DNA of 24,487 nucleotides from a virus. Positions 1 through 154 of this stretch are shown one piece after another (the first letter of the stretch is position 1; each line of letters begins with the position of its first letter). The stretch is taken from the IMG/VR virus record IMGVR_UViG_3300020400_000040, positions 1-24,487 of that record; one strand, given 5' to 3'. Position numbers and translations under genes: made by a program. The notes below the pieces were generated by a model. It saw only the letters and a program-made list of their open reading frames with translations, searched no databases and had not been told where the DNA came from.

Positions 1-112
1 GAACAAACAAAGTTGGTTTATACTTCAACTTTGAGTTTACTCTTTGACCGTTGACCACCTCTCGTATAAGAAGATTATTTCCGTAACGAACTACATTTGT
101 GTAAAAACTCAT
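1..112 (-). CDS. gp43: DNA polymerase gp43, N-terminal fragment cut by window edge
   Basis: Only the first 37 codons are inside the window; the frame is open to the left edge. The visible peptide starts MSFYTNV and continues with GNNLLIREVVNG and YKPTLFV, which matches the start of T4-type family B replicative DNA polymerases (a short beta hairpin followed by a 'P-T-L/M-F/Y' strand). The position supports this, because in T4-like phages gene 43 follows 45-44-62-regA, and here it follows that block after two extra genes. No Shine-Dalgarno sequence precedes the ATG at 112. Instead a TATAAT box ends 6 nt upstream, so the mRNA may be leaderless. The identification rests on a short stretch plus synteny. 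Confidence 0.82.
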   Translation of the reverse strand, partial: MSFYTNVVRYGNNLLIREVVNGQRVNSKLKYKPTLFV

Positions 113-118
113 AATATA

Positions 119-147
119 ATTATAATTTAAAAATGGGGGTTTGTCAA
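119..147 (-). promoter_or_regulatory. sigma70-type promoter for gp43, -35 inside terminator loop
   Basis: On the minus strand TTGACA (147-142), a 17-nt spacer and TATAAT (124-119) match the bacterial sigma70 consensus at all 12 positions. The -35 box lies in the loop and 3' arm of the hairpin at 133-154. The -10 box ends 6 nt before the gp43 ATG, so the expected start of transcription is at or next to the A of the ATG. Confidence 0.75.
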
Positions 148-154
148 CCCCCAT
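133..154 (-). terminator. rho-independent terminator after the DGQHR-type gene
   Basis: A perfect 9-bp stem (ATGGGGGTT paired with its complement) closes a 4-nt loop. On the minus strand it is followed by a run of T residues (TTTTTAAATT). It starts 5 nt after the stop codon of the upstream gene (stop at 160-162). The loop overlaps the -35 box of the gp43 promoter. A different role, as a translational operator of gp43, cannot be excluded. Confidence 0.82.

Follow-up and report, generated by a model that had tools for sequence, protein, structure and literature searches.

A putative terminator–promoter junction before the gp43 DNA polymerase gene of a T4-like virus and the promoter spacing of its relatives

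How can the DNA polymerase gene of a T4-like phage (gp43) be expressed when a terminator-type hairpin, a consensus promoter and the start codon are packed into about 45 nt behind a neighbouring gene? This question is raised by the minus strand of a 24,487-base virus record (IMG/VR), which was analysed at its full length and is called the window below. It had been predicted that these three elements are fused here, and the promoter (12/12), the hairpin and the ATG were all recovered by scanning. In our opinion, the junction is, with a probability of about 80%, a composite terminator–promoter giving a leaderless gp43 mRNA, in which the promoter would be old and conserved and the terminator would have been added together with an upstream gene of 329 aa; this estimate is based on sequence comparison.

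The virus and its gp43 junction

The minus strand of the window, on which all the features described below are located, contains replication genes of the T4 type, arranged as sliding clamp, clamp loader gp44, gp62, RegA, an 81-aa gene of phrog_1811 (1241–1486), the 329-aa gene (160–1149; phrog_5931, with no assigned function) and the start of gp43. Further products are a UvsW-like helicase, an SMC-like nuclease subunit, a metallophosphoesterase and a capsid scaffold protein. Only the first 37 codons of gp43 (1–112) are present before the gene runs off the window. The 37 aa opening at ATG 112 match T4-type DNA polymerase PHROGs, and the full gene (832 aa in L002) is visible in contigs L002 and L003, identical to the window in the shared part. 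The nearest named phages are the Methylophilales phages Melnitz (64.6% identity in gp44 and 63.9% in gp43), followed by cyanophages and Pelagibacter phage HTVC008M. The nearest cultured relatives are marine, and the window phage is probably an uncultured marine T4-like virus of bacteria. Rfam gave no match and ARAGORN no tRNA or tmRNA in the window or in L091, a contig of the same phage type.

The junction begins with a terminator-type hairpin (133–154), in which the 5' arm (154–146, ATGGGGGTT) and the 3' arm (141–133, AACCCCCAT) enclose the loop GACA (145–142). It is followed by TTTT (129–132) and then AAA, which can be read from the sequence as a modest U-tract. The −35 hexamer TTGACA occupies 142–147; the original prediction placed it in the loop of the hairpin, which is right for GACA, whereas TT is paired in the stem. 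The −10 hexamer TATAAT lies 17 nt after the −35 and is separated from the start codon by the 6-nt discriminator TATATT (113–118), which leaves no room for a Shine–Dalgarno (SD) sequence. The complete arrangement is ATGGGGGTT-GACA-AACCCCCAT TTTT AAATTATAAT TATATT ATG or, with the spacer shown, ATGGGGGTT-GACA-AACCCCCAT-TTTTAAAT-TATAAT-TATATT-ATG. The coordinates of the −10 (119–124) and of the ATG (112) agree with the 6-nt distance that had been claimed, and the claimed lack of an SD sequence, a property of leaderless mRNAs, is reflected in the SD duplex energy of +1.7 kcal/mol. Since six bases separate the −10 from the ATG, the expected transcription start is the A of the ATG (112), the same as in lambda cI.

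In the promoter scan, the gp43 promoter (147–119) scored 12/12 (TTGACA, 17 nt, TATAAT), its hexamers being spaced within the 16–18 nt of sigma-70 promoters, and only one more perfect promoter lies in the first 20 kb of the window. That one (1188–1216, TTGACA-17-TATAAT) precedes the 329-aa gene and is followed by a leader of about 32 nt with the SD sequence AAGGAG, which makes this gene a leadered contrast to gp43 in the same phage. The promoter at 1216–1188 also resembles the gp43 promoters of relatives and could be the original gp43 promoter left behind by an insertion.

The hairpin at 154–133 is the first listed of 12 terminator-like sites in the window (6.1 expected). Its stem of 9 bp, including 5 GC pairs, is as stable as required for an intrinsic terminator, and folding of a 62-nt stretch gave −17 kcal/mol (z −2.15); the MFE and centroid structures both contain the 9-bp stem. 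The tail consists of TTTT together with the last T of the stem, followed by AAATT; it passes the scan rule (5 T in 8) though it is short, and for an intrinsic terminator such a U-tract (TTTTAAATT) is a weak one. The description of a perfect GC-rich terminator hairpin holds apart from the shortness of the U-tract. Only 5 nt separate the stop codon of the 329-aa gene from the hairpin, whose folding a ribosome could therefore impede.

If the junction acts as a composite, RNA polymerase leaving the 329-aa gene would make the GC-rich hairpin, pause on the short U-run and be released inside the gp43 promoter spacer, before the −10, and upstream transcription would thereby be kept from invading the start of gp43. 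As double-stranded DNA, the same stretch would serve the host RNA polymerase as a consensus sigma-70 promoter for starting gp43 at the A of the ATG, and the resulting mRNA would be read by leaderless initiation and not via an SD sequence. The leaderless promoter would be the older part, and the terminator would have come with the inserted 329-aa gene in a modular insertion of the type known for promoter early stem-loops (PeSLs).

Promoter spacing at gp43 in related phages

The position of the promoter was compared at 80 related gp43 loci, named phages included, by a search that also accepted last −10 bases other than T (TATAAC sites included). The best promoter was found exactly 6 nt from the start codon at 58 of the 80 loci (31/45 after dereplication). 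With a fixed-position cut of 9/12, the −10 ends 6 nt before the start at 56/80 loci, and Markov-shuffled upstream regions reach this cut in 0.95%. All 56 of these loci have an ATG start, in agreement with the AUG expected of leaderless mRNAs, and an extended −10 TG occurs in 50 of them; TTG starts were found only among leadered gp43 loci.

In a separate IMG/VR scan, a consensus promoter was sought 3–33 nt before a start of the form ATGnnnTTYTAYAC. Its tally, a sample and not a census that also takes in loci from the earlier set, comprises at least 79 distinct gp43-like starts with a bimodal spacing: among the 79 matches listed, 53 are at 6 nt, 2 at 9 nt, 4 at 12 nt and 20 at 23–33 nt, with none at 3, 4, 5, 7 or 8 nt. 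Among the same matches, SD motifs are present in 0/53 starts at 6 nt versus 17/20 at 23–33 nt (p = 1e-10), where the zero is partly forced, since the −10 fills part of the SD region; the return of the SD with the longer leader is not forced by the −10 position. The spacing kept in relatives (56/80 at the 9/12 cut and 53/79 among the matches listed) argues strongly for the leaderless gp43 mRNA that had been predicted.

This layout is specific to gp43 and is not a general habit of these phages, since in 26 records an ATG lies 5–7 nt past the promoter for 12 of 16 gp43 promoters versus 10 of 83 other consensus promoters (p = 8e-7). Mapped on the gp43 tree, the 6-nt state shows strong clustering (9 changes versus 23.2 in shuffles) and fills most of the clade, and the Melnitz group is a mixture of leadered and 6-nt loci.

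A start of transcription 1–3 nt away, or even a dominant read-through transcript, would be compatible with the same layout. It is unlikely, in our view, that gp43 is translated mainly from read-through or polycistronic mRNA, with only a minor role for the promoter at the ATG and with translation either coupled to the upstream gene or begun at position 154. Such a route is suggested by an in-frame ATG at 154, overlooked in the original prediction, which is the first base of the hairpin, lies 5 nt past the upstream stop and opens the longest gp43 frame (846 aa); in cyanophages, moreover, gp43 overlaps or abuts the preceding gene and has no such promoter. However, ATG 154 sits in the hairpin stem, and in 51 of 56 relatives the 14 codons preceding the homologous start are interrupted by an in-frame stop, which makes 112 the likely gp43 start. 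The 14-aa N-terminal extension from ATG 154, which is not conserved, was rejected on the same grounds. Selection appears to keep the promoter at exactly 6 nt among the matches listed, and the relatives among them with 23–33 nt regain an SD sequence, both of which argue against the read-through route and for the leaderless one.

Some minor features of the related loci may be mentioned. In about 20 relatives, AGGT(G) occurs about 14 nt before the ATG as an imperfect and badly spaced SD sequence overlapping the extended −10. In L027, L030, L043, L050–L055 and others, AAAGGTGATATAG is found at about −17 to −12, with an SD-like AGGTGA too distant for a normal SD. In L050, L055, L075 and L080, for example, the TTGACA of the gp43 promoter contains the TGA stop of the upstream gene, and the commonest distance from the end of the upstream stop to the gp43 ATG is 31 nt (21 loci). 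In the cultured phage HTVC008M (L006, 4020–4062), the gp43 promoter has TTGACT in one arm of an AT-rich palindrome (TTGACTT-TTT-AAGTCAA), and the predicted leader of about 6 nt without an SD sequence would make this gene near-leaderless; L436, a relative, has exactly 6 nt. For Melnitz, which is cultured as well, a 20-nt leader with an SD sequence is predicted, in contrast to HTVC008M.

Comparison with known systems and possible significance

Leaderless mRNAs are well known. To our knowledge, those of phages are known mainly for repressors such as lambda cI. The cI mRNA is an established leaderless example (PMC9031893), and it served as a positive control: its −10, TAGATT, ends 6 nt before the ATG. 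The gp43 layout shares with cI (PRM) this exact distance, the lack of an SD sequence and the ATG start, but differs in belonging to an essential replication enzyme, in its consensus −35 and usually extended −10 and in its conservation across a clade. In Deinococcus-Thermus, genes with a '−10 motif adjacent to ORF' carry TANNNT a few bases before the ORF and are expressed without leaders (PMC12340547). The closeness of the −10 motif to the ORF is common to both; however, the bacterial arrangement is a host-wide mode, often without a −35, whereas the phage layout is concentrated on gp43 and has a consensus −35.

The regulatory region of the same gene is organized differently in T4 and RB69, where the leader of gene 43 contains an RNA hairpin operator that overlaps the ribosome binding site and mediates autoregulation (PMC3014915). 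The original prediction had drawn this contrast correctly: if transcription starts at 112, the window gp43 mRNA has neither a leader nor an SD sequence, and a leaderless mRNA offers no place for such an operator.

The terminator half recalls the PeSLs of T4-like phages, which were reportedly described by Arbiol and co-workers in 2010 and by Comeau and co-workers in 2014 (in Genome Biol Evol). PeSLs occur at high density in hyperplastic regions and mediate homologous exchange. T4-like phages are on record as having such composites, compact units of an early sigma-70 promoter and a stem-loop terminator at gene junctions, tied to gene insertion or exchange (PMC4503421). The gp43 junction likewise unites an early promoter and a stem-loop terminator in one short unit and goes along with an insertion: in 41 relatives gp43 comes immediately after the phrog_1811 gene, and in the window the 329-aa gene sits between the two. 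It differs from PeSLs, however, in standing directly before a core replication gene, in using the −35 itself as the hairpin loop and in having a −10 that touches the start codon, so that the product would be leaderless. From these comparisons, the junction can be regarded as a PeSL-like unit placed atop a conserved leaderless gp43 promoter, the latter apparently undescribed. No description of a conserved leaderless gp43 was found in the limited open-access literature, outside which most subscription papers lie, and the same literature contained nothing relevant on phage polymerase genes or cyanophage transcripts without leaders. The Melnitz paper includes a genome-wide promoter prediction, the relevant passages of which do not mention the 6-nt gp43 layout, and a gp43 promoter is likewise absent from the pelagimyophage paper.

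More tentatively, and with some doubt on our part, a wider proposal may be put forward for a large T4-like clade known mainly from marine contigs. There, the T4 mode of gp43 control by leader, SD and RNA operator might have been replaced by a leaderless early promoter fixed at 6 nt; polymerase synthesis would thus become independent of variable upstream inserts, with 70S/leaderless initiation favoured in infection. The exact start layout shared by many related phages suggests that a replication enzyme is made from mRNA without a ribosome-landing leader. If this is true, gp43 would do without the T4-style autoregulation through a 5' RNA operator, these phages would rely on host leaderless initiation early in infection, and promoter spacing would by itself suffice to check start-codon annotation. 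With its two modes (6 nt without an SD or 23–33 nt with one), the spacing provides a clean test set of close polymerases with and without a leader, and the junction itself points to a route by which a gene can be inserted ahead of an essential one whose expression stays undisturbed.

Distribution of the hairpin and a second composite

The terminator half is distributed quite differently from the promoter. At gp43, a terminator with TTGACA in its loop was found only in the window phage and its identical or near-identical copies L002 and L003, and at none of the other loci of the general scan. A search of relatives for the same layout, as had been proposed, thus recovered the promoter spacing but not the hairpin, and this lack of conservation at gp43 counts against the composite reading. 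The idea of a conserved TTGACA-in-loop terminator before gp43 was rejected, as the other scanned loci are without it and HTVC008M has only its AT-rich palindrome.

The window phage type has two composites of the TTGACA-in-hairpin form. The second one, AGGGGGAGTT-GACA-AACTCCCCCT-TTTTGT-TATAAT, was found in L091, 6.9 kb downstream of the gp43 start. In related contigs, the stems change in pairs, with TTGACA, T-run and −10 retained. In the composite stem alignment, 95% of cells are standard pairs, 5 of 10 pairs are changed on both sides and TTGACA is invariant; when the stem partner was slid by one column as a control, no pairs were changed on both sides. Because this alignment joins sites at different genes, it indicates that the composite form is maintained and not the gp43 copy in particular.

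It seems quite improbable to us that a protein operator (a repressor dyad), and not a terminator, is formed by the palindrome at the −35. In IMG/VR, 104 stretches have TATAAT at promoter spacing after GGGTTGACAAACCC, versus 11 with the scrambled TAATAT, and many of these sites have stems of only 5–6 bp without a T-run (at least 5 T in 8 in 19/83); such short-stem sites may themselves be operators, and they lend the idea some weight at gp43. The gp43 stem, however, has 9 bp and is followed by a T-run, a T-run is retained in every row of the composite alignment, and the paired stem changes of the related composite leave RNA pairing intact, whereas the sequence of a fixed operator would be changed by them. 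A chance meeting of a strong promoter and a hairpin without joint function, which would suit the restriction of the gp43 hairpin to one phage lineage, is very improbable, as composites with a promoter match of 10/12 or better, the −35 within a GC-rich hairpin and a tail rich in T number one in the window versus 0 in 200 Markov shuffles, and the second composite of the same form in this phage type has covarying related copies.

The 86-aa gene behind the L091 composite was considered as a second leaderless case and was not accepted, as an in-frame ATG 42 nt later has the SD sequence GAGAGG. A conserved non-coding block (L091, 7400–7540) lies before this composite; it contains a covarying stem (e.g., GATTCGCATG..CATGCGAATC), ends in GTAAGTCATTGTTnTTAnTA and gave no Rfam, tRNA or tmRNA match. 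Its last 20 bases recur in the unrelated contigs L309, L312, L313 and L318, where unrelated sequence follows. In L229 and L282, TTGACA was found in a palindrome 7 nt before the ATG of 370-aa ORFs, without a T-run, and these sites are possible operator-type promoters with leaderless genes.
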